A stretch of 64,000 nt of DNA from Desulfomonile tiedjei (GTDB lineage: Bacteria; Desulfobacterota; Desulfomonilia; Desulfomonilales; Desulfomonilaceae): the NCBI GenBank assembly GCA_016218715.1, contig JACRDG010000060.1, positions 1-64,000 on the forward strand, in the 5' to 3' direction. The position numbers were made by a program, and so were the translations under genes. Below are positions 9,973-34,624 of the stretch, piece by piece (positions within the stretch are counted from its first letter, which is position 1; each line of letters opens with the position of its first letter). The notes under the pieces are model-generated. The model was not told where the DNA came from. It saw only the letters and a program-made list of their open reading frames with translations, and made no database searches.

Positions 9973-10049
9973 GGCGGTGTAGCTCAGTCGGTTAGAGCAT
10001 GCGGCTCATATCCGCAGTGTCCGGGGTTCAAGTCCCTGCACCGCCACCA
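9973..10049 (+). tRNA. tRNA with CAT anticodon, probably tRNA-Met
   Basis: A 77-base tRNA including an encoded CCA. The acceptor arms GGCGGTG and CACCGCC pair perfectly; D arm GCTC/GAGC, anticodon stem TGCGG/CCGCA with loop CTCATAT (anticodon 10007-10009), and T arm CGGGG TTCAAGT CCCTG are all in place. CAT could be elongator Met or the lysidine-modified Ile tRNA; the first base pair is normal, so it is not an initiator. I favour elongator Met. Confidence 0.9.
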
Positions 10050-10627
10050 CCTAACCCCTTGATATCCTACGATGTGGCCCCTCCAAAACGCGTCAGCAAA
10101 TTCCAGATCGCTCGTCCTTTCAGGTAATTACCCTTTATGCGAACTAACATATCGTGATCACATATTATTCCGGCATTTCTTTTGTTGGAGGGCATCCAGG
10201 TCGGGGATCGGCTGACACTTGATTGCTGCCGCCTTGACGCGTTCCCTGGCTGCTGCCCCGCGTGACAGACGCGTGTTCGGGCAACGAGCAAGGTCTTGAA
10301 AACTGGTTGACGGAGCCGGCGGCGATGAGGTACGTTCGCGAATTCGTGCGAAACCCATTTGCCAAGAGAGAGTGTCATCTGAGCTACCGAGAAACTCGGG
10401 GGGAGACAGAGCAGCGGCCTTTTTGCGCTTGCAGGGTTCGTCGAGTGACCGATGATGAGCCCCAGAGACCCCGAAATGGCAAGGCCGCAGCATAATCTTG
10501 GGATGGGAGCCTTCCCTCGAACGGAAGAGCATTGATCCGGACCGCTGGGGAAGGCAGTCTCAAGGGAATTTACAGCTATTTTGGTTCACTACTGGGTTTC
10601 GGATTGACAGGGAGGGAGGTTCTGCTG
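10050..10627. other. intergenic, nothing recognised
   Basis: The 578 bases between the tRNA and the ankyrin gene have no supported gene. Short open frames on both strands lack ribosome binding sites and recognisable content. No clear promoter for the ankyrin gene was found. Confidence 0.4.
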
Positions 10628-13600
10628 ATGCGCGTTTCATTATTCCGGAGATTGCAGGCTCCTCGAGTCATTCTAGTCGTCACTCTCATTCTCGCAGGCG
10701 TTTTCGTGCCCGGCTACGCATGTGCTCAGGAAAAGGCTATCCCCTTGATCACTGCTGCGCAGAACGGGCAGTTGAGCGAAGTCACGAAGCTGTTGAAAGC
10801 CGGGGCCAAGGTCGACGTCAAGAACCAGTTCGGGACGACCCCGATCATGACTGCAGCGGGCAACGGTCACCTGGAAGTCGTGAAGCTGCTGATTCAGAAG
10901 AAGGCAACGGTCAACGCGCAGCAGACGAACGGGTTGTCCGCGCTGATATGGGCCACTTCGTACGGTTATACACCGGTGGTCGAGGAACTCCTCAAAGCAG
11001 GAGCGACGGTCGATCTGAAACAGACCGACGGCGTCACAGCACTGTTGTATGCGGCCTCCAACAATCACCTTGCTGCTGCAAGACTGCTGCTGGAAAAAGG
11101 CGCCAACGTGAACGCGGTGCAAGATAACGGGCGAAATCCGTTGATGTGGGCTGCCATCAACGGCAACCTGGACATGGTGAAGCTCCTGCTGGAATACAAG
11201 GCAGATCTCAATCTCCGCCCTGAAAACGCAGCTACCGCGCTGGTTTGGGCGGCAGCGAATGGCCATACCGAAGTGGTGAAGCTGCTCGTCGACAAGGGGG
11301 CAGACGTAAACGTCGCGACGGGAGATGGCTACACGTCCCTCATTTATGCCGCGGAAAGAGGCCATGGAGAGATCGTGAAGAGCCTGCTGGATAAAGGAAC
11401 GGACGTCAACACACGCAAGAAAGACGGCTCTACGGCCTTGCTGGCCGCTGCCCTCAATGGCCATGTCGGGGTTGCGACCATGCTTATCGAGAAAGGCGCC
11501 GATCTCCATGTGGAGCAGGAGGACGGCACCACGCTCTTGATGGCCGCATCCGGATCGGGAAAGCTGGATCTGGTCACGTTGCTGCTCGAGAAAAAGGCGG
11601 ATGTCCACGTTCAGCGGAAGGACGGCGCGACCGCTCTGTACTTGGCCGCGGCATCCGGGAACCAGGAAATCGTCAAATGGCTCCTGCACGAAGGTGCACG
11701 GCCTCAGGTCGCGAATGCAAAGGGAACAACGCCGCTGATGATTGCTGCGTATAAGGGTAATCTCGACGTGGTGAAGATCCTTGCCGAAGAGGGTGGCATC
11801 TATGGGACAGAGTTAGATGGGATGACTGCTCTTCATTGGGCAGCAGCCCAGAATCATCTGGAAGTGGTGAAGCTCCTCCTGGAAAGGGAGGCGAGCGTCA
11901 ATGCGGTCACCAAGTTGGGCATCACTCCTTTGATGGAAGCTGCACGGAACGGACGTTCGGAAATCGCGAAACTCTTGATAGAGCACCTTGCGGACGTCAA
12001 GCTCAAGACCACCGACAACGAGCGCACAGCCCTTCATTTCGCCTGTGAAAAGGGAGACGTGGAGATCGTGAAGCTGCTTTTGGCGAAGAATCCAGAAGTG
12101 GATGCGGCCACGACCGACACCGGAGTTACTCCGGTTTACATGGCTTGCGAGAAAGGACACCTCGATGTTGTCAAACTGCTTCGCGAGCACGGAGCCGACG
12201 TGGACCTTGCGCGAACCGACAATGGATTGACACCGCTGATCGTGGCCTCGATCGCAGGTCATGCGGAGGTCGTCAAGCTGCTGCTGGAGAGCGCGAGTAT
12301 CGACGCGACGGCCAAGAACGGAGCCACGGCCCTCATGGAAGCCGCGGCCTGCGGGCAACTGGAAGTCGTGAGGACTCTTCTCGATAAAGGAGCGGACGCG
12401 ACCATCAAGCACGCTAACGGTCTCTCGGCAATGGAGTTTGCGGCACAGAAGGGCCATGCCAAAATAGTCGAGCTGCTCAGGCCGGACGAGCCAACGGACG
12501 ATCGCCAGGAGCTGCTGAGGAGAGCGTGCAGGAAAGGTAATGCGGAAGTAGTGAAACGGCTTCTAACAGAGGGGGTGAATGTTAATGCCAAAGGAGCGAG
12601 TGACTACACCCCGTTGATCACGGCTGCCGCCAGCGGCTGCCCCGAAACAGTGAAACTGCTGGTGGAACGGGGAGCGAAGCTGGAAATGAAGGAAAAGGAG
12701 TTTGGCGCCACGGCCCTGGACTTAGCAGTATTATACGGTAGCATGGCGCACACGAAAGACGTGCTGCCCAAGGACTCGTCCCTATACGCCTGGATAACCG
12801 GCACACCCTCTGATTACTTTGAAGTGGTGAAGATCCTGCTGGACAAGGGCGCCAACCCCAATGTCAGAAGGAAGAACGGAGGAACGCTTTTGACGGGAGC
12901 CAGCCGTGTGGACATGGCTCGGATCCTTGTCGAGAAAGGAGCAGACGTCAACGCGAAGTGGCTCGACGGCGAGACCGTGCTGATGGGCGCTTCCGAGCTT
13001 AGAGACGCGGGAAAGGTCCGACTTCTGCTGGAAAAGGGGGCGCAGGTCAACGCGAAAGCTACCGATGGCCGTACCGCATTGACCGTTGCCGCGAAAAATG
13101 GAAACGAGGAAGTCGTGGCGGTTCTCCTGGAGAAAGGTGCGGCTACCAACGCGAGATTGAATGACGGGCATACAGCGCTCACGTTGGCTGCCTTTGAAGG
13201 ACACGAGGAAACGGTCAAGCTGCTCCTGGAAAAGGGTGTCGAGGTCGACGCAAGGATTCGCCAGGGAGCCACCGCACTGATGCTGGCGGCCCAGAAAGGC
13301 CGCGAGGGAGTGGTGGAGTTGCTCCTGGCAAAAGGAGCCGACCCCAATTTCAAGTTCCGGCTAGAAAAAGTGGGGAACGTGACGCCTCTCTTGATTGCCG
13401 TTCTCGAGGGGCATCAAGAGATCGTGAGACTGCTGCTGGAGCGAGGAGCGGACGTCAGTACAAAGATCCAAAGTGGAAAGACCCCCCTCTTTGCCGCGGT
13501 GGAATACAAGTTCCCCGAGATAGCGAAGATGCTGCTCGAAAAGGGAGCGGACCCCAATGTACGCACAGACAAGGGTCAGTCAGTGCTATACTTCGAGATC

Positions 13601-14122
13601 GGACAGTCCAAGCCAGATGTCGACACGGTACGAATGCTTCTCGACGCGGGAGCCGATGTGAATCTCCAGGACAAGGAGGGGCTTACACCGCTCCTTGGTG
13701 CTGCAGCTGGCGGCCATACCGAAATCGGCAGTATGCTCCTCGAGAGAAACGCGGGTCCAATTAACCGTGCCATGGGGCTGGCAGCACTGGCCGGCCACCT
13801 CGATATGGTGAAACTCCTCCTGGACAAGGGAGCTGATAATGTGAACGAAACTGTGCTTTTCGCTGCTGGGGAAGGCTTTCCCGAGATCATCCGGGTGCTC
13901 TTGGAAAAAGACGTGGACATCGACGCAGGAAACGCAGTGGGGACGACTGCCCTGATGAAGGCATCGGAGAACGGTCGCGTGGATGCGGTGAACCTGCTCC
14001 TGGAAAAAGGGGCAAACGTGAATCTCAAGGACAAGAAGGGGCAGACGGCCCTGGCATTGGCATCAAAGAAAGGCCATGCAGAAGTGGTCAAACTGCTCAC
14101 CGCACAGGGAGCGAAGAAGTAG
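10628..14122 (+). CDS. exported giant ankyrin-repeat protein
   Basis: A 1164-residue protein built almost wholly of ankyrin repeats, about 33 units of 33 residues, each a helix-loop-helix used for protein binding. ATG 10628 is chosen because GGGAGG lies upstream and a signal peptide follows directly (VILVVTLILAGVFVPGYACA-QE). The array is interrupted once, around residues 615-630, by a linker RPDEPTDDRQELLRRACRKG, and a second time by an insert near residue 705-725. No catalytic domain is visible. The next gene, a TPR-CHAT protein also with a signal sequence, starts 62 bases downstream, so the two are probably co-transcribed. Location is periplasm or cell surface by inference from the signal peptide. 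Confidence 0.93.
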   Translation: MRVSLFRRLQAPRVILVVTLILAGVFVPGYACAQEKAIPLITAAQNGQLSEVTKLLKAGAKVDVKNQFGTTPIMTAAGNGHLEVVKLLIQKKATVNAQQTNGLSALIWATSYGYTPVVEELLKAGATVDLKQTDGVTALLYAASNNHLAAARLLLEKGANVNAVQDNGRNPLMWAAINGNLDMVKLLLEYKADLNLRPENAATALVWAAANGHTEVVKLLVDKGADVNVATGDGYTSLIYAAERGHGEIVKSLLDKGTDVNTRKKDGSTALLAAALNGHVGVATMLIEKGADLHVEQEDGTTLLMAASGSGKLDLVTLLLEKKADVHVQRKDGATALYLAAASGNQEIVKWLLHEGARPQVANAKGTTPLMIAAYKGNLDVVKILAEEGGIYGTELDGMTALHWAAAQNHLEVVKLLLEREASVNAVTKLGITPLMEAARNGRSEIAKLLIEHLADVKLKTTDNERTALHFACEKGDVEIVKLLLAKNPEVDAATTDTGVTPVYMACEKGHLDVVKLLREHGADVDLARTDNGLTPLIVASIAGHAEVVKLLLESASIDATAKNGATALMEAAACGQLEVVRTLLDKGADATIKHANGLSAMEFAAQKGHAKIVELLRPDEPTDDRQELLRRACRKGNAEVVKRLLTEGVNVNAKGASDYTPLITAAASGCPETVKLLVERGAKLEMKEKEFGATALDLAVLYGSMAHTKDVLPKDSSLYAWITGTPSDYFEVVKILLDKGANPNVRRKNGGTLLTGASRVDMARILVEKGADVNAKWLDGETVLMGASELRDAGKVRLLLEKGAQVNAKATDGRTALTVAAKNGNEEVVAVLLEKGAATNARLNDGHTALTLAAFEGHEETVKLLLEKGVEVDARIRQGATALMLAAQKGREGVVELLLAKGADPNFKFRLEKVGNVTPLLIAVLEGHQEIVRLLLERGADVSTKIQSGKTPLFAAVEYKFPEIAKMLLEKGADPNVRTDKGQSVLYFEIGQSKPDVDTVRMLLDAGADVNLQDKEGLTPLLGAAAGGHTEIGSMLLERNAGPINRAMGLAALAGHLDMVKLLLDKGADNVNETVLFAAGEGFPEIIRVLLEKDVDIDAGNAVGTTALMKASENGRVDAVNLLLEKGANVNLKDKKGQTALALASKKGHAEVVKLLTAQGAKK

Positions 14123-14184
14123 TCAGTTGCCGTCGGTGGGATTTTTTTTGTCGTCCAGGCTGTTCGTGTGGAGGAGATATTTTC

Positions 14185-17166
14185 ATGAGGTTCGCAATCG
14201 CAACGCTCTTGGTCTCCATATTTGCTTTGGGTCTCGGGGTGGGAACCGGGTGCTGCCAGTCAAAGCAGGAGGCCATGCGGTTACTGAACGAGGCGCGTAA
14301 GCTCAGCGCAGACGGTCGACCGATTGAAGACACGAAGAAAGCAGTGGACAAACTCGCTCAGGCAATAGCGATCTTGGAGAAACTAGGCCTCAAGGAAGCA
14401 GTAGCCTCGGTTGCCATATCGCGGGGAGTTGGCCTGAAGGAGTTGGGTGACTTCGAACAAGCCGCTAAGTCGTACCTCAAATCGCTCGCGATCAAGAGGG
14501 AGTTGGGGGACCGCGAAGGACAAGCGGAGCTTCTCCAGGAACTGGGCATTGTGTACGATGCGCTGAACAGGCCTTTAACCGCGCTGCAGTACTATGACCA
14601 GGCTCAGGCAATACAGAAGGAACTTGGTGGCAAGAAAGCCCTTGGCCAGATTCTCAACAACATGGGGGTCGTGTACAAAAACCTGGGCAGGTACGGCGCT
14701 GCCCTGGATCACTTCCAGAGGGCCCTGGCAATCAAGCGGGAAGTGGCTGACCGGAAGGAGGAGGCCCAAACCCTAAGAAGTATGGGAACCGTGTACCAAT
14801 CGATCGGCAACTCCGCAAAGGCCATGGAGAGTTATCAGCAGGTCCTGAATGTCCGGAGAGAGATCGGGGACCGCGTTGGCGAGGCAGATTGCATCAACGA
14901 CCTCGGTTCGGTTTACCTCGATTGGGGGAAGTACGCCAAAGCGAAGGAGTACTGGACCAGTACGCTCTCGATGGCCAAGGAACTGGAGAGCCCGATCCTT
15001 GAATACAACAGCTTGCATAACCTGGGTTTGGTGATGGAGTCGCTTGGCGAGTACACCTCAGCGCTCGCCAATTTTGAAAGAGCCCAGCAGGTGTGGCTTG
15101 CGATGGCACGCAATCCGCTGAAGAGTGGGGCGCTGAAGCGGATGTGGACCATGCGGGCGCGCGTGCAAGGAACTGAGGCAGCGGTCCCCTTGATTGAGAA
15201 CGAAGTCAGATCGTATGAGGCTGCAGGGAAATCCTCGGAAAGTCTGCAACCATTGTTGGCGACCCTGTACCTGGATCTCGGCGAGACAGAAAAGGCGGAA
15301 CCGATCGTTCGGTCCGGCGGACTCTTCGCCAACCTCGGCAGGTTGAACCTCCTCAAAGCGCGGTATCCGGCTGCCAGAGGGTACTACCGGCAACTCATAA
15401 AGGCCGCTGAGACGAGCAAGAACGCCGACGATCTTTTCATGGGGTACACCGGCTTCGGGACCGCCAGCGAGGAACTGGGCGATCTTCCGGGAGCGGAGGC
15501 CTCGTTCCGTAAAGCCGTGGACCACACAGAACAGATCAGAGCGCAACTGAATCGGGGCGATCGGGAGAAGTTCTTCGACGTTCGAGTCGGAGGCTTCTAT
15601 CGGACCGCACCCTACGAAGGACTTGCGAGGGTCCTCACCAAACTGAACCGGCCGGCGGAAGCTTTCAAGACATCGGAATACACCAAGGCGCGGGTGTTTG
15701 CAGAGTCTCTGTCCTCAGTCCAGGAAGGCACAGGATTCGATCTTCCCCAGGAAGTCATCCAGCGAGACGCGGATCTCTCCGACCAGCTTTCCGCGCTGAA
15801 GAGGAACCAACAGTCGGCCTACGAACGGAACAACGAGGAGGCAGTTACTTCGCTCGGTTCGCAGATCAAGGGGATTGAAGGACAACTTTCCAGCCATATT
15901 AAGGACCTGCGCCGCGATTACCCTCTCTTTGCTGCGACGAAGTACCCGGAGCCGATGGACCTCGACCAGACCGCTTTGACGGACGGCGAATGGGCGCTCA
16001 GTTTTGACGTGACGGACACCTGCGTGCTCGTCTACCTCACCCGAGGGAAAACACTGGTCAAAACGCTTCTGAAGCCGATCTTGAGAAAGGACCTGGATGC
16101 TCTGGTGCGCTCCTTTCGGGAGCCTCTCGAGGTGGGATCCGATCAGGAAGTTGTCAAGAAGCTTTCCACGTTCGACTTCATATCTGGAAGGAAGCTGTCA
16201 GAGCTGCTTCTCGGAGAAGTGCTCGCAGATGTGCCGCCGAACGAGCCGATCCTCATAGTGCCCGATGACTCCCTGGGCGTCCTCCCCTTTGAGATGCTCG
16301 TGATAGGTGGGGCCGGGGAAGTGAAGACCGACAAGAAGATCCCCTATGTGTCGGGTGCGGAGTTTCTTGGCGATCGCAATCCCGTCTCTTATTACCAGTC
16401 TATCACTGCGCTCACTCTTGCTCGCGGTGCGGCCAAGGCCGGACTGCCGGCGGATAGGCTGCTTGTAATGGCTGACCCGGTGTTCGAGCCTGACGATCCC
16501 CGCATCAAGGAATTGGGGCAACAACGGCAAGAAGTCTTGCTCAAAGGGCTTCCTGAGAGGCTCATGTCCGTGAAGATGGAAACGGGTGTCACATTTCCGA
16601 GGCTTCCGCTGACCGGAGAACTCAGCAACTTTCTGAAAGACCTTAACCCGGACGTCACCGACCAATACACGGGCCTGCAGGCTGTCAAATGGGTTCTCCT
16701 GGAGAAACCGCTCAATCGGTACGGCTCCATGGTATTTGCCACGCACGGGTATTTTGGGAAGGACATTCCAGGCGTTCAGGAGCCGGTGCTGGTACTCTCG
16801 CTCGTCAATCAGGAGGCAGAGGGTGACGGATTCTTGCGGATGACCGAAGTGATGGGATTGAAGATCAACGCGGACATGGTCGTACTGACGGCCTGCCAGA
16901 CTGGACTGGGTGCACGGATCACCGGCGAAGGGACTATGGGAATGGGCAGGGCGTTCCAGTACGCCGGTGCGAAAAGCGTCTTGATGAGCCTCTGGTCAGT
17001 GGCTGAGATTTCATCAGTGACGCTCATGGAAAGCTTCTTCAAGCAAATGAAGACCGGCAAGAACAAACTGGCAGCCCTGAAGCTTGCCCGAGATGAGATA
17101 AGAAAGAACGGCTATGACCATCCGTTCTTCTGGGCTCCCTTCATATTAGTGGGCGAGACTGACTAG
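14185..17166 (+). CDS. exported TPR-CHAT protein (caspase-like fold)
   Basis: A 993-residue protein with a signal sequence (IATLLVSIFALGLGVGTG before Cys, possibly a lipoprotein), an array of 40-residue kinesin-light-chain-type TPRs over about residues 30-330, more degenerate helical repeats to about 560, and a C-terminal CHAT domain (about 620-990). CHAT is a caspase-related cysteine protease fold. Its dyad is present: His854 in FATHGYF and Cys904 in LTACQTGLG, followed by the usual GAKSVLMSLWSV and HPFFWAPFILVG. GGAGGAG precedes ATG 14185. Such proteins usually sit in the cytoplasm (separase/Craspase relatives) or occur as exported versions in cyanobacteria and deltaproteobacteria; partners are unknown. 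It follows the ankyrin gene by 62 bases. Confidence 0.92.
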   Translation: MRFAIATLLVSIFALGLGVGTGCCQSKQEAMRLLNEARKLSADGRPIEDTKKAVDKLAQAIAILEKLGLKEAVASVAISRGVGLKELGDFEQAAKSYLKSLAIKRELGDREGQAELLQELGIVYDALNRPLTALQYYDQAQAIQKELGGKKALGQILNNMGVVYKNLGRYGAALDHFQRALAIKREVADRKEEAQTLRSMGTVYQSIGNSAKAMESYQQVLNVRREIGDRVGEADCINDLGSVYLDWGKYAKAKEYWTSTLSMAKELESPILEYNSLHNLGLVMESLGEYTSALANFERAQQVWLAMARNPLKSGALKRMWTMRARVQGTEAAVPLIENEVRSYEAAGKSSESLQPLLATLYLDLGETEKAEPIVRSGGLFANLGRLNLLKARYPAARGYYRQLIKAAETSKNADDLFMGYTGFGTASEELGDLPGAEASFRKAVDHTEQIRAQLNRGDREKFFDVRVGGFYRTAPYEGLARVLTKLNRPAEAFKTSEYTKARVFAESLSSVQEGTGFDLPQEVIQRDADLSDQLSALKRNQQSAYERNNEEAVTSLGSQIKGIEGQLSSHIKDLRRDYPLFAATKYPEPMDLDQTALTDGEWALSFDVTDTCVLVYLTRGKTLVKTLLKPILRKDLDALVRSFREPLEVGSDQEVVKKLSTFDFISGRKLSELLLGEVLADVPPNEPILIVPDDSLGVLPFEMLVIGGAGEVKTDKKIPYVSGAEFLGDRNPVSYYQSITALTLARGAAKAGLPADRLLVMADPVFEPDDPRIKELGQQRQEVLLKGLPERLMSVKMETGVTFPRLPLTGELSNFLKDLNPDVTDQYTGLQAVKWVLLEKPLNRYGSMVFATHGYFGKDIPGVQEPVLVLSLVNQEAEGDGFLRMTEVMGLKINADMVVLTACQTGLGARITGEGTMGMGRAFQYAGAKSVLMSLWSVAEISSVTLMESFFKQMKTGKNKLAALKLARDEIRKNGYDHPFFWAPFILVGETD

Positions 17167-17304: not shown

Positions 17305-17556
17305 ATGAAGCGCTTGGTGTTTCTGGTCGCGATCTTGGCCGCCACGGTCTCGTGTGCGTTCGCGGAGACGTGGTAATATGATCCTCCGATATTCCCAGGG
17401 GACAACGCAGTATGGAGAAACAGCAGCGGGGACCGGTGGCGTGTCGGCTCACCCGATTTTCCGGGTGATACAGTGAGAATCCAGGGACGTCGGGGCCAGA
17501 ATTACCGGATGAGCACTCCGATGTTCCCGGGAGACTCCTACCGGATCGACAGGTAA
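17305..17556 (+). pseudogene. small exported FPGD-repeat protein interrupted by an in-frame TAA
   Basis: GGGAGG stands six bases before ATG 17305. The frame reads a signal peptide (MKRLVFLVAILAATVSCAFA), then ETW and a TAA stop at 17374-17376. The same frame then stays open for 59 more codons to a second TAA at 17554-17556. The downstream part has three copies of a motif: PPIFPGDNAVWR, SPDFPGDTVRIQ and TPMFPGDSYRID. Motif periodicity across the stop shows that both parts belong to one coding unit of about 82 residues. A single base change (TAA from TAT or TAC, for example) explains the break. Options are a recent nonsense mutation, a sequencing error, or readthrough. I know no family for it. 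Confidence 0.7.
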
Positions 17557-22638: not shown

Positions 22639-25092
22639 TCATAGCTGAGAGTCACTCGTTGCTTGCTCAAGAAGCTCACGAGGCACACGAACGGTCACAT
22701 TCCACGCGAGAGATCGTTCAGCAGGTCTGGATTTCACGACAGAGTCCCGAACCTTGGCCGAGCCGGTATCGGCATAGGCTATCGACGCTCGCTCGGGCTC
22801 GATGTTCATTAAGACACCTCCGCAATTGCGAACATAGAAGACAGAGCCTGTCTGCCCGTGAGAAACACTCAATTTCTTGAAATGAGGGATGCCAGGCAGT
22901 TGCCGCTGGACTTCGTTCCCGGAAGTGTCGCTGTATTCCAGCAGATGAATGAGATCCGCTCCGGCTTCATCAGGAGCGTTTCTCATTTTGATAATCTGCG
23001 CCAATGCGACAAATCGATAGAGATGCGCAAGCTCCTGATAGATCGGCCTCGCCGATGCGATCTCACCATATTTCTCTGTGAAGCTCCTGGCAAACTCATC
23101 GGCCAATGGGTGAGGTTTTCCGCTCTGGGTCACCTGCCCCGTGCCGGTAAGGAGTTCTTCTTCAGTGGAGAGCCCCACAGCCACCCGTTTGACCCAGATG
23201 GCATCGTCCTCTTCGAGGTAAGCGCTCTCTTTCGGCGCAAACCAGAATCTGTTGAAAATCATGGGGGGCACGGCGGCCTTCCCTCTACTCGCGTCTTGTC
23301 GAATGGCGGCCAACATTTTGTCGGTAACGCTCTGGAAACCGCGAATATCGAGGTTCTCCGATCCATCGACCAGCCGTTTCATGAAATAATCCGCTTCCAC
23401 CATTATCTTGGAGAATCGCGAATCAAACGGAACGCCCATGACCCGTACGGCTTGAGGCTGTTGGCAGAGGTTTTGCCATTTGCGATTCGCCTTCTCCAGG
23501 TCTCGCTCGTTGAGAACTCTGTCACCGGAGGCATCCACCCCTTGGAGCTGCCTCATGACTTCCGGATCTGGATCGATGGAACAGCCTGGGAATTCTTGTG
23601 CTGCCCATGCGTTTTTTAGCGCCACCAGAAGATCCTCTGTATGGAGCCGTGGCCCGCCACCAGCCGTACTTCCCAGAAGAATGAGGTCCCCGTTTTCTTT
23701 GTCCAGGCAGTATCCAAGCAGTTCCCTCATACCCCCCAAGAACCTTGCGTCATCCGAACATCTTCCCGTATCCGCACATTCCTTGAGTCTTTCCTGCAAT
23801 ACCGTCAATGACAACGCGACGGCTTCTATGGTCTTACCCTGGTCCGCTGTGGGACTTGGCTCTACGAGAGGTTGCTCGGCGGCCCCGGTTTTCGGCGGCG
23901 CTTCTGTTTTCGGCGGCTCCACCTTTTCAGGGGTCACGGCAGGTGCATCCACCGTCGTGGCCGTATGAGGAGCCGGGGCCTGTTCCGGCTTCCGCTCGAC
24001 CGGTTGCTCTGGCGCAGCAGGTTGGGGACTTGGCTCCGCGACAGGTTGCTCGGTGGCACCCGCTATCGCCGGAGCTTCTGTCTTGGGCGGCTCCACCTTT
24101 TCAGGGGTCGCCGCAGGGGCATCCACTGTCGAGGCAGTCTGAGGAGGCGGGGCCTGTTCCGGCTTCCGCTCGACCGGTTGCTCTTGCGCAGCAGGTTGGG
24201 GATTTGGCTCCGCGACTGGTTGCTCTGCCGCAGCGGTTTTCGCCGGCGCTTCTGTTTTCGGCGGCTCCACCTTTTCAGGCGTCACGGCAGGGGCGTCCAT
24301 TGTCGAGGCCGGCTGAGGAGCCGGGGCCTGTTCCGGCTTGGGGTCGACCGGTTGCTCGTGCGCAGCAGGTTTTTCTGGCTGAGGCCCGATGGCCCTTGGC
24401 TTCTCGGCTACCCTGGGCTTTTCCACCAGCGACGGTTCAGCCACCGTCGGCTGCGGCATAGAGTGATTGCGTGAGTGCTCGGAATCGGCGTCCCCTGATG
24501 TCTCCGGTTCCGCCGCCAGCGTAGCCGCACCGGATCGTACTATCCGCAATCGTAATTCAGCCTCGGTGAATGATTGTTTCCCCAACGCTGAGGCCTCGGC
24601 TCCAATCCAGCTCTCGGCCATCTCAGGTCTGTCCGACCCGGCGAAGTCACGAGAAGACTCGCCAGCTCTTCGCGCGGTCTCTTCTCGCGTGAGCGTGGCC
24701 ACGGCCTTGACTACCTCGGTCCCCTCGGGACCGCGGATTCTGAAGATGATCCCGGAACCTGACGCAGGTACGGAGTAAGTCTTTCCTTTCTCCACTCTAT
24801 TGTCCGGGTGCCACTTGTTTGGAAACAGGATGCTTACCTCGCCGCTCGTTCCGATGTCGATGAGTGTCAGATAGCAATCCTTATTCGCCTCGAACCTAAG
24901 TCGAATTTTGTCGCCAATCCGATAAACCGACTTGTTCTCATCAGTCCATAGTCTGACCTTGAATTCCCGCTTTTCAGCCTGACTGTCCGTCCTCGATTTC
25001 GCCAGCACCGTGCTCGCGTCCCAAGCTGACAATAGTAGGCACGCTATAAGCAGTATCATTGCCAACGAGGAGATCCTGTTCCATGCCTTCAT
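22639..25092 (-). CDS. exported DUF4384 / DUF1598-like protein with a Pro-rich tandem repeat
   Basis: An 817-residue exported protein. ATG 25092 is preferred (AGGAG upstream, then signal segment ISSLAMILLIACLLLSAW). Residues about 40-140 match DUF4384 (VYRIGDKIRLRFEANKDCYL, LTLIDIGTSGEVSILFPN). A Pro/Ala/Glu-rich stretch contains three 58-residue repeats, each starting EQPV.. and including TPEKVEPPKTEAP. The C-terminal 330 residues resemble DUF1598 (VEADYFMKRLVDG, FNRFWFAP, FARSFTEKYGEIASARPIYQEL). DUF4384 often accompanies serine/threonine kinase or peptidoglycan-associated systems; the Pro-rich part is probably an extended periplasmic spacer. No enzymatic residues are evident. Confidence 0.82.
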   Translation of the reverse strand: MKAWNRISSLAMILLIACLLLSAWDASTVLAKSRTDSQAEKREFKVRLWTDENKSVYRIGDKIRLRFEANKDCYLTLIDIGTSGEVSILFPNKWHPDNRVEKGKTYSVPASGSGIIFRIRGPEGTEVVKAVATLTREETARRAGESSRDFAGSDRPEMAESWIGAEASALGKQSFTEAELRLRIVRSGAATLAAEPETSGDADSEHSRNHSMPQPTVAEPSLVEKPRVAEKPRAIGPQPEKPAAHEQPVDPKPEQAPAPQPASTMDAPAVTPEKVEPPKTEAPAKTAAAEQPVAEPNPQPAAQEQPVERKPEQAPPPQTASTVDAPAATPEKVEPPKTEAPAIAGATEQPVAEPSPQPAAPEQPVERKPEQAPAPHTATTVDAPAVTPEKVEPPKTEAPPKTGAAEQPLVEPSPTADQGKTIEAVALSLTVLQERLKECADTGRCSDDARFLGGMRELLGYCLDKENGDLILLGSTAGGGPRLHTEDLLVALKNAWAAQEFPGCSIDPDPEVMRQLQGVDASGDRVLNERDLEKANRKWQNLCQQPQAVRVMGVPFDSRFSKIMVEADYFMKRLVDGSENLDIRGFQSVTDKMLAAIRQDASRGKAAVPPMIFNRFWFAPKESAYLEEDDAIWVKRVAVGLSTEEELLTGTGQVTQSGKPHPLADEFARSFTEKYGEIASARPIYQELAHLYRFVALAQIIKMRNAPDEAGADLIHLLEYSDTSGNEVQRQLPGIPHFKKLSVSHGQTGSVFYVRNCGGVLMNIEPERASIAYADTGSAKVRDSVVKSRPAERSLAWNVTVRVPRELLEQATSDSQL
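23836..24357 (-). repeat. 3 x 174 bp in-frame tandem repeat
   Basis: Three units start at 24357, 24183 and 24009 reading on the minus strand. The period is exactly 174 bases (58 codons), so copy-number changes would keep the frame of the enclosing gene. The third unit is slightly diverged at its end. Confidence 0.85.
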
Positions 25093-25542
25093 TGAAACAC
25101 TCCTTTCCGCCGCTCCCTCATATTGCTCCACCAACCTGCTCAGTCGTTTTTTTGGCAGTTGCCGTAGAAGACTCCCCGATCTCGGGGGACCTTTCCCGCC
25201 AGTTTACGCTTGCTCCGCGAAAGGTCTTACCAGTACTATGCTCTTGGCCGCTCTCATCCCGGAAAAGCTCTCAGAATCCTGTCGTCGATCGCTAAAGGGT
25301 TAGTTGGGCACGACCAGCTCATGTGACAAAGAATTCTGCTCCGCGGAAAAGATTCTCGACTGGAGACAAAATGCCGCGAGAATTGACAGGAGCTCCACTA
25401 GTCCACGGCCTCCCAACGGCCTCGAAACTTCGGCAAACGTTTGCGCGAATCGATGGATGGGCTCGAACGAGCATGCGGCCGTGCCGCTCAGCAGGTCTTG
25501 TCATCTCCCTTGTGCACTTCTCGTGGCCGGGAACCGTCATGG
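25093..25542. other. intergenic between divergent genes
   Basis: No gene is supported here. A plus-strand frame from 25323 is continuous with the next gene but lacks a ribosome binding site and looks non-coding before 25638. Confidence 0.4.
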
Positions 25543-27075: not shown

Positions 27076-30000
27076 ATGCCCGGACAAAAGGTTCAGAATT
27101 GGCGGGACCTTGGCAAAATTCCGGTTGAGGCGGACCCTCATTACCTATCGGTCGACACAAAACCTATGTTCACGCTAGAAGGTTATGAAATCCTTGACCC
27201 CATTTATGAGAGTTCCCGATCGACCGTCTGTCGGGCCCGGAGGTTAGCGGACGGCCTGGGTGTTGTGCTGAAAGCCCTTGCCAGAGAGCGACCACTGCCT
27301 GAAGAAGTAGCCCGCCGAAGACATGAATACGCGATTCTGAAAAGCCTTCATTTGGATGGGGTTGTAACGGCCCACAGCCTGGAGGAACATTCCGTCGGAC
27401 CGATACTCGTTCTCGAGGACTTTGGCGCGGAGCGTCTGAGCGAATGGGTGGGAAGGCGTCAGCCGGATCTGCCGGAACTCATTGCCCTGGCTGTTAGAAT
27501 AGTCTCCATTCTCGGCGATATTCACACGGCCCAAATCATCCATAAGGATGTGAACCCGACAAATCTGATCTGTTCCGTCAACGACGGAAGAATCAAGCTG
27601 ATAGATTTCGACATAGCAGGGGTCTTCTCCAGAGAAGACGCGTTCCCCCGCGACCCGGTGCGTTTTCAAGGGACGTTATCCTATATTTCGCCCGAACAAA
27701 CCGGCCGGACCAACCGCCTGATAGACTATCGCACGGACTATTACTCGTTGGGGGTCACGCTTTATGAGTTGCTCTGCGGTTGCCTCCCATTCGAGAGTAA
27801 CAACCCCTTGGAGCTGGTGCACTGCCACATCGCCAGGGTGCCTATTCCGCCTGCGGATTTGAATCCCGCTGTACCTCGACCGCTATCAGACATAGTCATG
27901 AAGCTCATGGCCAAAGACGCATCGGAGCGCTACCAGAGCTCGCGTGGGATCAGGGCCGACCTCGAGGAATGCGCACGACTCCTGCAAGACGCCGGGCCCA
28001 TGAAACCGTTTCCCCTGGCCCGACAGGACGCGCCTGCGAGATTTATCGCCCCCCAGAAGATCTACGGAAGACAGGGCGAAGTGGACACGCTGCTGAGGGC
28101 TTTCGATAGGGTTTCCGCGGGGGCCAAGGAGATGATCCTCGTCTCGGGTCCTCCGGGATCGGGCAAGACTTCGCTGGTTCGAGAGATCTACGAGCCGGTC
28201 ACTCGTCGCAAGGGCTGTTTCGTGTACGGTAAATGCGATCAGTTTCAAGGAGACGTGTTCGATTCCGCGATGGTTGAAGCTTTTCGACCTCAAGTGAGGG
28301 GCATCCTTACGGGGAGCGACGAGCGACTGGCCGCGTGGCGCGAGAAACTCACCGAAGCCTTGCGACCCAACGGGGCGATTCTCGCACAAATGATTCCGGA
28401 ACTTCAGTTCATCCTGGGGCCTCAGCCACCGACCGCGGAAGTGGCGCCGCTGGAGGCCCGGAACCGATTCAATCTATTGTTCAAGTCGTTCCTGAACCTG
28501 TGGTGCGACAAAGATCACCCCACGGTGCTTTTCCTGGACGATCTCCAGTGGGCGGACGCCACCTCCCTGCGTCTTCTTGAATTGATGCTCGACGCGGAGG
28601 ACGTGCGGTACCTACTGGTGGTCGGCTCGTATCGAACCGATGAAGTGTCTGCCGATCACGGGCTAATAAAGGGGATTGGCCGTGTAGTCAGAGAGGGCGC
28701 CACGGTTAATTCCATCGGCCTGGACCCGCTGAAGATTGGATCGGTTACCGAACTCGTGTCCGACGCGGTCCGCTGCGACAAGGACTCGGCTGGTCCGTTG
28801 GCGGAAGTTGTCCTCCAAAAAACCGGAGGAAACCCGTTCTTTGCCAATGAGTTCATGAAATCCCTGTACGAAGCGAAACTCCTGGACTTCGATCAAGAGC
28901 GAGGAGTCTGGGCCTGGGACCTCAGGGACGTGGAGAACCAGTCTATTACGCAGAACATCGCGGATCTGATGTCCGCAAGAATAAAGAATCTGGACCTCAG
29001 AACTCAGGAAGCGCTCAGGTCGGCATCCTGCCTGGGAAGTCGTTTCGAACTCGGCGTCCTGGCCCATGTACTGGGATATTCAGAGTCGGAAGCCATGGGA
29101 GCGCTCCGTGAAGCTGTCTCTGAGGGAATGCTCATAGGACTGGTAAACGTCTGGACGTCCGGCGACCCCCATTCCTGCGGACTGGACGCGAACCTGCCAA
29201 TCGAGCTGAAGTTTGCCCATGACAGGATCCGACAGGCCGCTTACGAGCTGATTCCCGAGTCGGAGAGGCCGACCGTTCACCTCTGCCTGGGACGCAAGCT
29301 CATCGAGCACGGTTTTGCCTCTTCTGAAGGAGAAAAGCTCCTTCAGGTTGTCGATCACCTGAATGCTGCGGCGGCTCTGGTGGACGAGAAAGACGAGATC
29401 GTCCGGTTCGCGGAGCTTAACCTTATGGCGGCCAAGAGAGCCAAAGCAGCAGCGTCGTACGAAGCGGCGTTTCGTTACGCCAAATCCGGCCTGGGCCTTT
29501 TGAAACCTGAGAACTGGGAGACACATCACGAACTGACGCTGGAACTGCACTTGGCCGCGGCCGAAGGGGCATATCTGTGCGCGGATATAGAGGAGTCGGA
29601 GCGTTTGTCCAGGATCGTGCTCCGACACGCCGGCTCCAGTTTGGAAAAAGTAAGGGCATACGAGGTCAGGATCCAATCCTGCGTCGCCCGCTACGACATG
29701 CTGGAGGCAGTGCGGACCTCACTCGACGCCCTGGATCTCCTCGGAATTCGTTTCCCCTTGAGGCCCAGTAAATCCGCTGTAGTTTGGGCCATTTTGAAGA
29801 CCAAGTACTTGCTGTTTGGAAAGGACGTCGAATCCCTGGTCGACCTTCCCGAAATGACCGACCCGAACGCACGCGCCGCGCTGAGGATCATGTCCAGCGC
29901 GGCCAAGGCGGTATACGCTACCGTGCCGGAACTGGTACCGCTTTTTGTAGGCCAAACGGTCAACCTGTCGCTAAAGTACGGCAATACACCCGATTCGGCG

Positions 30001-32913
30001 ATAGCATACGCTACCTACGCAATGGTCCTGGCGGGGATACTGGGGGAGACAGATCGAGGCTGTCGCTTCGGAGAGATGGCCCTTAATCTGGCGCAACGCT
30101 TCGGCTCTTCCCCATCCAGCGTTCGATCCGTGATGACCGTCTATTTCTTCGTCAAGCCTTGCAGGGAACATTATCGGGAATCAATAGAACACTTCACCAA
30201 TCTGTATAAGAGGGCTTTGGAATTGGGGGCGTTTGAAGACGCCGCGCTGTGTGCCTACTTCTATTGCACGTGCCTGTTTCGCACCGGCGCGGGCCTGCAA
30301 ATTATTGAACTGGAAATGAGCCGACATTGCGAAGTCATCCGCAAGATGAGACAAGACACCGCGCACCGACTCATCTCCATATTCAGGCAGGCGGTGTTGA
30401 ATCTCACGGGTCACGCGACCGATCCCTGCGTCTTGGTGGGAAGCGCCTACGACGAGAATTCCGAAATGCCGCAGCTCCGCAGTGCGAACGACAGGAGCGC
30501 CGTGTGCGTCACCTATTTGAATAAGCTCCATCTTTGCGTACTATTCCACGACTACGGCCGAGCGCTGGAAAACTCGAAAGGAGCTCAGGAATACCTGGAC
30601 GGAGTCAGAGCCACCGCGGGTGAGCCGACGTTCTATTTCTACGATTCCCTGGCGCGCCTCGCCTTGTGTGCGTCGGAAAACAGAACCGACCGGAGGGCGC
30701 TTCTGAAGAAAGCCGCGTCAAACCAAAGAAGAATCAGGAAATGGGCACTCCACGCGCCTATGAATCATCTCCACAAAGCCCTGCTCATCGACGCAGAACG
30801 TTTTCGAGCTCTCGGCAAGGACAGTCGTGCCGAACAATGCTACGACCAAGCTATAGAGGCAGCGAGCAAGAATCAATACATACATGAAGAGGCACTTGCC
30901 ACCGAACTGGCGGGCAGGTTCCACCTCTCCAGGGGGCGTATTCAAACAGCCAGAGACTATATCCGAAGGGCGCGAAGTTTGTACAGCGCCTGGGGCGCTC
31001 GCGCAAAGGTAAGGCATCTGGACGACAAGTATTTTCAGCTGTTGGAGAAACCATCCGAATCCCTGTCCACTGTCTCGGATGAAAGGACACTGACTTCAAC
31101 CATTTCCAATGAAAACGAACTGAGTCTGGACATGAACGCTGTCCTGGAAACCTCCCTGGCGATTTCCGGAGAGATCGTCCTGGACAAACTCCTGGACAAG
31201 CTCATGAGAATAGTCATAGAGAGCGCGGGAGCGCAAAAGGGGATTCTGATCGTCGATTCAGGGAACGGTCTCATAGTCCGGTCTGAAGTCAACGCGGAAG
31301 CGGACTCGGGACCGATTCTCCAGGACATTCCACTTGGCTTCTGCCAAGGACTCTCCCAGGGAGTCGTGCGATACGTCGCTCGAACCGAGGAAATCGTCGC
31401 GCTGGGCGACGCGGCTGAAGAGGGGATGTTCACCGCCGACCCCTACGTGTCCGCGACTCGTCCAAAGTCCATTCTTTGCGCTCCCCTGCTCCATCGCGGC
31501 AGACTCGTGGGGGTTGTGTACTTGGAAAACAATCTGGCCACCAACTCGTTCACTCCGAGCAGGGTAGAACTTCTGCGCATCCTCTGTTCCCAAGCGGCCA
31601 TTTCCCTGGAGAACGCTCTGCTCTACGAACGTATGGAACAACTGGTCCAGCAACGAACCCACGAGCTTCAGTGGTCCAATGAGGAACTCCGCAAGGAAAT
31701 CCTGGTCAAGGAGAGGGCCCAACAGGAATTCATTCACGCCAAACTGGAAGCAGAGGCCGCGAGCCGCGCCAAGAGCGAGTTCCTGACTAACATGAGCCAC
31801 GAGCTCAGAACGCCGCTCAACGCGGTGATAGGTTTCTCCGAACTCCTTTTGGACCTCTGGCCTGGGCCGCTGAACGAGAAACAGAAGCAATACCTGAACC
31901 AGGTCTGGGATTCAGGTCGTCACTTGTTGCAGTTGATCAACGACATACTGGACTTGGCCAAAGTGGAATCAGGCAAGATGGAGCTACTTGTCGTCCCGGT
32001 GAACGTGGGGGATCTGTTGCACGAATGCATGAGCATGATCCAGGAAACAGCCACGAAGAAAGGCTTGAATCTGGAAGTCAAGATATCCGACGAGACCCAA
32101 TCCGCAATGGTGCAGGCCGACGAGGTGAAGCTCAAACAGATCATGCTCAACCTGCTATCCAATGCGACCAAGTTTACTCCCGCGGGCGGAACCGTCACGG
32201 TGGAGGCGAACATGGAGGACAACGCGCTCAGGATGACGGTCTCGGACACCGGGATCGGGGTTAACCCAGAGTATTCCGAACGAATTTTTGGGGCGTTCGA
32301 GCAAGTTGATTCCTCACTGTCCAGGCGTCAGGAAGGCACCGGTCTGGGACTCGCGCTGAGCCGTCGGCTCGCGGAGCTTCACCACGGCCGCCTGTGGGTC
32401 GAGAGCGAAGGTGAGGGCAGAGGAAGCGATTTCATCCTGGAGATCCCCGTGAGCCCCACGGCGCCCGCTATTCACCCGCTCCAGGCGCCACCGGCGGATC
32501 CTCCCGCGGAACCGTCAAGCTCGGACGCCGTGAGGCAGAGTCAAAGGATACCAAGGCCGAGGGTCTTGGTGATAGAAGACAATGACGCTAGCCTCAGGCT
32601 CGCCGAGAGCCTGGTGGAAGAAGCGGGTTACACTCCGTTACGGGCCCGGACCGCGGACGAGGGCGTGAGAATGGCCGAATCGGAAGTCCTCGCTCTCATA
32701 CTGATGGACATATCCCTTCCGGGCATGGACGGCCTCACCGCCACACGCAAGCTCAAACAAAACCCTAAGACCTCTCATATCCCCGTGGTGGCCTTGACCG
32801 CCCACGCTATGAAAGGCGACATGGAAAAGGCCCTGGACGCCGGGTTCGACGCGTACCTCACCAAGCCGGTGGACCGGAAGAGTTTCATGACTACCCTAAA
32901 GAGGCTGATTTAA
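27076..32913 (+). CDS. hybrid Ser/Thr kinase - AAA ATPase - GAF - histidine kinase - receiver protein
   Basis: A 1945-residue cytoplasmic multi-sensor kinase. Order: protein-kinase domain (about 35-300; Lys66 in VVLKAL, catalytic loop HKDVNPTN with Asp158, IDFD, SPEQTGR), a predicted STAND-like ATPase (Walker A GPPGSGKT at about 358-365, Walker B VLFLDDLQWAD), a long helical TPR-like region, a GAF domain (about 1370-1510), HisKA with phospho-acceptor His1575 in NMSHELRTP, HATPase (NLLSNATKF, DTGIGV, GTGLGLALS) and a C-terminal receiver with Asp1878 in LMDISLP. The glycine loop of the kinase is degenerate (YESSRSTV). No membrane segment or DNA-binding output is present. The start is taken as 27076, where the binding site is poor; ATG 27166 is the alternative. 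Signal and target are unknown. Confidence 0.93.
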   Translation: MPGQKVQNWRDLGKIPVEADPHYLSVDTKPMFTLEGYEILDPIYESSRSTVCRARRLADGLGVVLKALARERPLPEEVARRRHEYAILKSLHLDGVVTAHSLEEHSVGPILVLEDFGAERLSEWVGRRQPDLPELIALAVRIVSILGDIHTAQIIHKDVNPTNLICSVNDGRIKLIDFDIAGVFSREDAFPRDPVRFQGTLSYISPEQTGRTNRLIDYRTDYYSLGVTLYELLCGCLPFESNNPLELVHCHIARVPIPPADLNPAVPRPLSDIVMKLMAKDASERYQSSRGIRADLEECARLLQDAGPMKPFPLARQDAPARFIAPQKIYGRQGEVDTLLRAFDRVSAGAKEMILVSGPPGSGKTSLVREIYEPVTRRKGCFVYGKCDQFQGDVFDSAMVEAFRPQVRGILTGSDERLAAWREKLTEALRPNGAILAQMIPELQFILGPQPPTAEVAPLEARNRFNLLFKSFLNLWCDKDHPTVLFLDDLQWADATSLRLLELMLDAEDVRYLLVVGSYRTDEVSADHGLIKGIGRVVREGATVNSIGLDPLKIGSVTELVSDAVRCDKDSAGPLAEVVLQKTGGNPFFANEFMKSLYEAKLLDFDQERGVWAWDLRDVENQSITQNIADLMSARIKNLDLRTQEALRSASCLGSRFELGVLAHVLGYSESEAMGALREAVSEGMLIGLVNVWTSGDPHSCGLDANLPIELKFAHDRIRQAAYELIPESERPTVHLCLGRKLIEHGFASSEGEKLLQVVDHLNAAAALVDEKDEIVRFAELNLMAAKRAKAAASYEAAFRYAKSGLGLLKPENWETHHELTLELHLAAAEGAYLCADIEESERLSRIVLRHAGSSLEKVRAYEVRIQSCVARYDMLEAVRTSLDALDLLGIRFPLRPSKSAVVWAILKTKYLLFGKDVESLVDLPEMTDPNARAALRIMSSAAKAVYATVPELVPLFVGQTVNLSLKYGNTPDSAIAYATYAMVLAGILGETDRGCRFGEMALNLAQRFGSSPSSVRSVMTVYFFVKPCREHYRESIEHFTNLYKRALELGAFEDAALCAYFYCTCLFRTGAGLQIIELEMSRHCEVIRKMRQDTAHRLISIFRQAVLNLTGHATDPCVLVGSAYDENSEMPQLRSANDRSAVCVTYLNKLHLCVLFHDYGRALENSKGAQEYLDGVRATAGEPTFYFYDSLARLALCASENRTDRRALLKKAASNQRRIRKWALHAPMNHLHKALLIDAERFRALGKDSRAEQCYDQAIEAASKNQYIHEEALATELAGRFHLSRGRIQTARDYIRRARSLYSAWGARAKVRHLDDKYFQLLEKPSESLSTVSDERTLTSTISNENELSLDMNAVLETSLAISGEIVLDKLLDKLMRIVIESAGAQKGILIVDSGNGLIVRSEVNAEADSGPILQDIPLGFCQGLSQGVVRYVARTEEIVALGDAAEEGMFTADPYVSATRPKSILCAPLLHRGRLVGVVYLENNLATNSFTPSRVELLRILCSQAAISLENALLYERMEQLVQQRTHELQWSNEELRKEILVKERAQQEFIHAKLEAEAASRAKSEFLTNMSHELRTPLNAVIGFSELLLDLWPGPLNEKQKQYLNQVWDSGRHLLQLINDILDLAKVESGKMELLVVPVNVGDLLHECMSMIQETATKKGLNLEVKISDETQSAMVQADEVKLKQIMLNLLSNATKFTPAGGTVTVEANMEDNALRMTVSDTGIGVNPEYSERIFGAFEQVDSSLSRRQEGTGLGLALSRRLAELHHGRLWVESEGEGRGSDFILEIPVSPTAPAIHPLQAPPADPPAEPSSSDAVRQSQRIPRPRVLVIEDNDASLRLAESLVEEAGYTPLRARTADEGVRMAESEVLALILMDISLPGMDGLTATRKLKQNPKTSHIPVVALTAHAMKGDMEKALDAGFDAYLTKPVDRKSFMTTLKRLI

Positions 32914-33784: not shown

Positions 33785-34624
33785 ATGGAGGCGAGGAAGA
33801 GAAGATACCCTATCGTGGCACTGCTGTTGTCGCTGCTCGTCCCAGGTGTCGGCCAGATGTACAACGGGCAACTCGCCAGAGGGGTGTGCTTGCATGCAGG
33901 GGTGTTGCTGGTTTGGACCGTCATGGGGCTGACCGGCTTGCTCTACAGCTTCTTCGGGGCCTGCGTTTGGCTCTTGTGTGGGGTTGCCCTTTGGTGGGTG
34001 ATCATTCCCCTGGATGCGGTACTGGGTTCCCGTAGACGCAGAGAGATGCCCCTGAAGGCGTACAATCGTTGGTACTATTACGTAATTGTCATTGTTGCCT
34101 TCGCGTTGCTGGCCGACTTTCTGTATCAGCCCATAAATCAGATCTACGTCAGGCACGTGAGAACGTTCAGGGTCCCGATATCCTCGATGGAGCCGACCCT
34201 CTGCGTAGGGGATTATTTCGTCACGCAAATCAACCCGTACCGCTCTCAATCACCTTCCAGAAACGACGTGGTAGTTTTTCCCTTTCCTGAGGACACCTCG
34301 AAGATGTTCGTGAAACGAATAGTGGGGCTCGGAGGCGAGAAACTGGAGATCCGAGACAAGAAGCTCTATGTGAACGACAAGGTCCTGGATGAACCCTGGG
34401 CGGTCCATTCGTCGTCCGTGTCGCTGCCAAGAGAACGAAGTCCCCGGGACGGGTATGGGCCGGTGGTTGTCCCTTCGGGAGCTGTTTTCGTGATGGGAGA
34501 CAACCGTGACCATAGTCTTGACAGCCGCTTCTGGGGTTTTTTGCCATGGAGGGACATTCAGGGCAAGGCCTTGTACGTCTATTGGTCGAAAGACCTGAAG
34601 AGGATAGGCGACGAGGTGAAATAG
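33785..34624 (+). CDS. lepB: signal peptidase I with an N-terminal membrane extension
   Basis: Signal peptidase I cleaves signal peptides of exported proteins on the outer face of the inner membrane. The 279-residue product has the Ser/Lys dyad: Ser134 in ISSMEPT and Lys177 in FVKRIVG, followed by box E MGDNRDHSLDSRFWG. Before the catalytic domain there is an extra region of about 110 residues with several hydrophobic segments, starting with a PGVGQMYNGQLARG motif like that of small TM2-type or DUF5683-type membrane proteins. Such fusions are known in deltaproteobacteria. ATG 33785 follows a GGCATGGGAA stretch; a GGAGG is found slightly further upstream. Confidence 0.93.
   Translation: MEARKRRYPIVALLLSLLVPGVGQMYNGQLARGVCLHAGVLLVWTVMGLTGLLYSFFGACVWLLCGVALWWVIIPLDAVLGSRRRREMPLKAYNRWYYYVIVIVAFALLADFLYQPINQIYVRHVRTFRVPISSMEPTLCVGDYFVTQINPYRSQSPSRNDVVVFPFPEDTSKMFVKRIVGLGGEKLEIRDKKLYVNDKVLDEPWAVHSSSVSLPRERSPRDGYGPVVVPSGAVFVMGDNRDHSLDSRFWGFLPWRDIQGKALYVYWSKDLKRIGDEVK

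Follow-up and report, generated by a model that had tools for sequence, protein, structure and literature searches.

Two adjacent genes in the window (the whole 64,000-nucleotide stretch of Desulfomonile tiedjei DNA analysed here) may encode a module of the cell envelope, periplasmic or on the surface, in which a caspase-like TPR-CHAT peptidase is served by an exported ankyrin protein that acts as its recognition or holding partner, a reading to which we give a probability of about 0.45, a little short of even odds. What the sequence displays is the neighbourhood of the two genes, the export-like starts of both products, an intact catalytic dyad, and a combination that recurs in relatives, where fusions of ankyrin repeats to a caspase-type peptidase also occur. 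The first-pass annotation had described the two genes as adjacent on one strand, 62 bases apart and both carrying signal sequences, and this description holds. The features are as follows.

9973–10049, plus strand: tRNA-Met (CAT), the left border of a lineage-specific stretch
10050–35055, no strand: the 25-kb stretch with the ankyrin-CHAT pair; three relatives have 0.16 to 2.8 kb at the same site
10628–14122, plus strand: ankyrin protein, 1164 aa, about 33–35 repeats that make up the whole mature protein (open reading frame, Pfam, repeat HMM)
10628–10726, plus strand: signal-peptide-like N-terminus of the ankyrin protein, probably cleaved behind ACA at residue 33 (sequence inspection and home-made rule)
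14123–14184, plus strand: intergenic gap of 62 bases between the two genes, with a T8 tract and GGAGG before the CHAT start (sequence scan)
14185–17166, plus strand: TPR-CHAT protein, 993 aa (open reading frame, Pfam, AlphaFold2 model)
14185–14256, plus strand: signal-peptide-like N-terminus of the CHAT protein, with a putative cut around residue 24 or, alternatively, Cys23 as a lipoprotein cysteine (home-made rule and the paralogue in L039)
14323–15543, plus strand: TPR superhelix, about residues 47–453 (Pfam TPR_12; paired helices in the model)
16183–17157, plus strand: CHAT domain, residues 667–991 (PF12770, E = 8.3e-50)
16744–16746, plus strand: codon of the catalytic His854, just after strand 846–852 (homologue alignment, model)
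16894–16896, plus strand: codon of the catalytic Cys904, just after strand 898–902 (homologue alignment, model)

The ankyrin protein bears out the earlier count of about 33 repeats: Pfam assigns the entire protein to ankyrin repeats (Ank_2, E = 1.6e-264), a custom repeat HMM recovers 35 stretches, and residue identity within the protein peaks at a lag of 33. Its ATG at 10628 is preceded by GGGAGGGAGG, a strong Shine-Dalgarno-like stretch, and a longer frame from an alternative TTG start at 10532 is also open. The N-terminus reads MRVSLFRRLQAPRVILVVTLILAGVFVPGYACA, followed by QE after a cleavage site of the AxA type. MzaA and the Dot/Icm Ank effectors were considered as identities for this protein and rejected, their NCBIfam scores being far below the cut-offs and reflecting the repeats alone. 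No plus-strand terminator was found by scanning the gap that follows, where the T8 tract comes without a recognised hairpin, and GGAGG ahead of the ATG at 14185 is again a strong Shine-Dalgarno-like stretch. The CHAT protein then begins MRFAIATLLVSIFALGLGVGTGCC, continuing as QSKQ after the putative cut; its nearest paralogue (L039) begins MKALFALITALSMLSAFVPGAAQAQSKQ and shows GAAQAQSKQ at the corresponding position. Read against the lipobox rule, Cys23 of the CHAT protein could alternatively be a lipoprotein cysteine.

That the second protein joins TPRs to a CHAT domain with an intact dyad of His854 and Cys904 was also read correctly, down to the positions of the two residues. TPR_12 matches with E = 2.9e-40 (137 bits) and PF12770, C-terminal to it, with 170.3 bits against a curated cut-off of 24, which places the protein in the TPR-CHAT type; the dyad is invariant in 18 of 18 homologues. 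In clan CD peptidases the catalytic residues are expected just after strand ends, and in the AlphaFold2 model of the window protein, a good one (pLDDT 86.7, pTM 0.80), His854 and Cys904 each follow directly on the end of a strand, as fits this peptidase clan. Searches of PDB chains with phmmer and profiles gave no meaningful sequence match of the CHAT domain to a solved structure. By fold, the top Foldseek match of the model is the transmembrane anti-sigma factor DdvA (PDB 8rot, E = 3.5e-13), followed by separase and then by Csx29 (E = 1.7e-11). DdvA, which holds the ECF factor DdvS inactive in Myxococcus xanthus (PMC4374960), is like the window protein in fold, and is itself the membrane anti-sigma factor, whereas the window protein is separate and predicted to be exported. 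A DdvA-type transmembrane anti-sigma factor was rejected as an identity for the window protein: Pfam returns no zf-HC2 domain in it, its signal segment leads directly into the TPRs, and it does not combine a cytoplasmic anti-sigma domain and a membrane helix in one chain.

The first-pass annotation took CHAT proteins to be usually cytoplasmic, and on this point it fails for the TPR-CHAT type, since by our home-made signal rule 40 of 48 relatives outside the main set, and most CHAT proteins of the family, have a signal-like start. The export calls combine this rule with N-terminal comparison; the rule is crude, misses evident signals and has a high background (other open reading frames of at least 250 aa at the same loci score in 80 of 213 cases), and for this reason weight was placed on the recurring N-terminal pattern instead. 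Judged in this way, exported TPR-CHAT proteins appear ordinary for their type, with as many as 16 in one genome here and examples in many Bacteroidota.

The best argument for a cooperation of ankyrin repeats with caspase-like peptidases in the envelope comes from fusions: in the Desulfomonilaceae, the family of the window's genome, one gene encodes both an exported Peptidase_C14 domain and 9–12 ankyrin repeats (G000, G002, G003, G005, G008, G009, G012). The SGHG and DAC motifs that carry the His and Cys were read in every fusion but that of G002 and are intact. Across 297 sampled genomes of the phylum, nothing outside the family matched over both the C14 and the ankyrin half, and we found no name for these fusions in the literature. 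Like the window pair, they combine a signal-like start, a His-Cys peptidase of clan CD and ankyrin repeats, and so both functions; unlike the pair, their peptidase is C14 and not TPR-CHAT, they are one gene and not two, and they usually lie behind genes for an ECF sigma factor and an anti-sigma factor. The two peptidase types are also found together, as about 10 of the 41 loci inspected have a C14 gene no more than two genes away from a TPR-CHAT gene, and in other relatives C14 is joined to DUF4384, TPR, Sel1 and even CHAT (L069). The last case, at L069:5585–8029 (G007:C343), is an exported protein that carries, in a single frame at a contig end, a C14 caspase domain together with the C-terminal region of TPR-CHAT proteins. 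The earlier proposal that a caspase-like peptidase is matched to an exported ankyrin scaffold thus gains from the fusions of seven genomes and from at least four further CHAT-ankyrin neighbours; its companion claim, that such an arrangement would be unusual, does not carry over to the export of TPR-CHAT proteins.

If the pair is a two-gene version of the exported caspase-ankyrin fusion of its relatives, proteolysis would fall to TPR-CHAT, with the exported ankyrin protein as its partner for recognition or holding. The ankyrin superhelix would bind an envelope protein or ligand, this binding would bring a substrate to the CHAT dyad or release it, and the cut made by CHAT would be an irreversible signal. 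The physical interaction, the proteolytic activity, the trigger and the substrate are what we infer for the window pair.

The roles could also be distributed differently, with the ankyrin protein as substrate or inhibitor of the CHAT peptidase, cut when the system is triggered. Such an arrangement exists in the type III-E CRISPR system, in which the TPR-CHAT protease Csx29 frees an ECF sigma factor by cleaving its inhibitor, the associated protein Csx30 (PMC10028731), and the ankyrin gene is immediately upstream of the CHAT gene in the same direction. However, ankyrin repeats fused to an active-looking caspase domain in seven relatives would suit a recognition arm better, and the ankyrin partners of CHAT proteins vary widely in length and in their extra domains (a PQQ propeller, a FecR-like domain); we regard this alternative as unlikely, if one to be taken seriously. 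The likeness to Csx29 of Craspase (PMC10028731, PMC9729208) consists in the TPR and CHAT fold and a His-Cys protease, and is a similarity of fold alone, with no sequence homology detected by phmmer or profile search. By way of its substrate Csx30, Csx29 is linked with an ECF sigma factor; unlike the window protein, it acts inside the cell with Cas7-11 and a guide RNA. A Pfam scan of the neighbouring open reading frames, up to about 43 kb, returned no Cas or Csx30-type gene; with no Cas-type neighbours among the scanned frames and a likeness of fold only, membership of a CRISPR-Craspase system was set aside as unlikely.

As to whether the two genes are neighbours in relatives, on which the annotation had made its proposal depend, the exact pair is not kept, which goes half-way towards the refutation it had named, but the combination of ankyrin and CHAT genes does recur. 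The closest CHAT homologues, 51–57% identical over the C-terminal part, are C9 of the same genome, G006:C64, G003:C29 and G007:C269, and an ankyrin neighbour is absent from all of them, which makes the exact pair lineage-specific; the only close homologue in an operon with an ankyrin gene is G004:C41, in the order CHAT-CHAT-ankyrin. Beyond the window, same-strand ankyrin genes follow at least four CHAT genes, in G004 (two loci), G006 and G003, the neighbour in G003 being a FecR-type ankyrin protein. In the three genomes whose ankyrin genes were counted by hand (G000, G004 and G006), an ankyrin gene lies within a limit of 400 bp of a CHAT gene four times (twice in G004) where 0.13 would be expected, an excess with P of about 1e-5, or 4e-4 without the window pair. 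On the CHAT tree, a quick FastTree calculation with weak deep branches, the ankyrin-linked proteins fall on separate branches, and the link would therefore have arisen more than once.

These data bear directly on whether the two genes are side by side by chance in a genome rich in both kinds, with separate functions. The host genome has 8 CHAT matches and roughly 50 ankyrin genes (a number counted by hand from its Ank_2 stretches, of which there are at least 178), so chance neighbours do occur; the closest homologues stand without ankyrin genes beside them, and the stretch that holds the pair is lineage-specific. The excess of adjacency, the recurrence on separate branches and the restriction of the caspase-ankyrin fusions to the family within our sample all speak for more than coincidence, and we consider chance improbable, with some weight left to it. 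For the module we favour, the points against are the closest CHAT proteins without ankyrin partners, the chance neighbours to be had among so many ankyrin genes, the G006 ankyrin partner, which has no signal start by the home-made rule, and a CHAT clade without sigma-linked members.

In three relatives, RadC, tRNA-Met, ORF301 and asparagine synthase stand close together, with 0.16, 2 and 2.8 kb between the tRNA and ORF301, whereas 25 kb separate tRNA-Met from ORF301 and asparagine synthase in the window, with the ankyrin-CHAT pair at the tRNA end. A mobile element was considered and rejected, as the tRNA end does not recur over 13 bases or more elsewhere in the window and no integrase was recognised among the scanned proteins; the sole 12-base match in the window, at 1267, is outside the 25-kb stretch. 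Just after the CHAT gene, at 17305–17553 (plus strand), a small signal-peptide-like frame, MKRLVFLVAILAATVSCAFAETW, with an in-frame TAA and three FPGD repeats, appears to be a decayed or misassembled small exported protein. The 25-kb stretch further holds an exported-looking DUF4384 protein with a DUF1598 stretch (22639–25134, minus strand), a 1945-aa Ser/Thr kinase-AAA-GAF-histidine kinase-receiver protein (27076–32913, plus strand) and a type I signal peptidase (33785–34624, plus strand); relatives have DUF4384 both in fusions with caspase domains and beside CHAT genes.

A contact or defence role, which the annotation had also suggested, finds no direct support. Surface or secreted factors for contact, defence or protection from predators would agree with the predicted exit of both proteins from the cytoplasm, with the variable gene content at the tRNA gene and with a serpin gene beside a CHAT gene in one relative. 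Against this, the PADLOC matches are to generic ankyrin-, TPR- and caspase-type models, no defence family beyond these appears, and no integrase or att repeat was recognised, so that we think this very unlikely. With no system-specific protein among the strong PADLOC matches, a known anti-phage defence system was rejected as an identity.

Envelope surveillance, another of the early suggestions, gains weight from operons of relatives in which such peptidases accompany an ECF sigma factor and a transmembrane anti-sigma factor. The peptidase gene comes after both genes at L057, L061, L062, L077, L168, L172, L180 and L193; at L170 only the anti-sigma gene is visible before it, and at L195 two genes come in between. 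The anti-sigma protein has an N-terminal zf-HC2 domain, one membrane helix near residue 150–170 and about 170 residues outside, and its family was found, among the 297 genomes of the phylum, only in the two Desulfomonilaceae members included. By a hand count over the operons of this one family, an exported C14 or CHAT peptidase, often a caspase-ankyrin fusion, lies within a few genes in about 13 of 17. The operon of ECF sigma, transmembrane zf-HC2 anti-sigma and exported caspase-ankyrin fusion (L172:974–5171, L193:4565–8610, L168, L195, L170) is kept in five genera of the family, and the L172 copy (G000:C48) belongs to the window's own genome. Within these ECF operons, the peptidase would most likely act on the part of the transmembrane anti-sigma factor that lies in the periplasm. 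CHAT proteins have been described in the gene neighbourhood of ECF54 sigma factors, with proteolytic control proposed (PMC8999054); those systems were described without an anti-sigma factor, which the Desulfomonilaceae operons do possess, and beside the window pair there is neither a sigma nor an anti-sigma gene.

For the window pair itself, it is conceivable that a sigma factor is released when the exported peptidase cleaves, within its periplasmic domain, a transmembrane anti-sigma factor encoded elsewhere. The 13 of 17 operons, the architecture of the anti-sigma protein, the top fold match to DdvA, an anti-sigma factor, and the operon on C48 of the same genome all lend themselves to this idea. 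However, no sigma or anti-sigma match was found within the window, the clade of the window CHAT protein on the quick FastTree has no sigma-linked member, and the peptidases may instead be products of the regulon; we hold this quite improbable. The parallels with DdvA, Csx29 and the ECF54 factors make cleavage of the anti-sigma factor a good guess for the sigma-linked relatives, and the absence of local sigma and anti-sigma genes, together with a clade lacking sigma-linked members, is why we do not carry these parallels over to the pair automatically.

It is tempting to extend the module we favour into an envelope alarm of the Desulfomonilaceae, in which exported C14 and TPR-CHAT peptidases, aimed by ankyrin repeats fused to them or encoded next door, would set ECF sigma factors free by cutting transmembrane anti-sigma factors, with Craspase as a cytoplasmic relative or parallel and the window pair as a split, lineage-specific unit; as a whole we rate this as doubtful, and rather improbable. 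Discussion of caspase relatives in bacteria centres mostly on cytoplasmic proteases of cell death or defence; in the family studied here, many are exported and are coupled to ankyrin repeats by fusion or neighbourhood and, in sister operons, set behind an ECF sigma factor and its anti-sigma factor. DegS acting on RseA is a periplasmic cut that controls transcription; whether caspase-like cuts in the periplasm do the same, and whether they are an older counterpart of the sigma link of Craspase, can now be tested. Individually, exported caspase homologues, links of CHAT proteins to sigma factors and TPR-CHAT proteases are already known. Bacterial orthocaspases and metacaspases with an N-terminal helix, likely a signal peptide, were noted previously, in papers that mention neither an ankyrin partner nor a fusion (PMC3501461, PMC6426788), and a literature search that missed most subscription journals found no paper on ankyrin partners of bacterial orthocaspases.

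The relatives supply some further arrangements. At L057:2980–16128 (G015:C188), the order is ECF, anti-sigma, OmpA/TPR, CHAT, caspase/DUF4384, caspase/DUF4384, serpin, CHAT and caspase/DUF4384, which reads as a dense caspase-like cluster with a gene for a protease inhibitor, the serpin. A gene facing a CHAT gene at L068:1–717 (G007:C220) encodes a zinc-finger-like start (HxxxCxxC, a motif read by eye that Pfam did not return), a membrane helix and ankyrin repeats, and looks as though an anti-sigma factor had ankyrin repeats for its outer domain. Finally, large proteins of about 730–880 aa (L198, L199, L200, L201, L202 and L203) share the outer domain of the anti-sigma family as their C-terminal part and have a different conserved domain as their N-terminal half.
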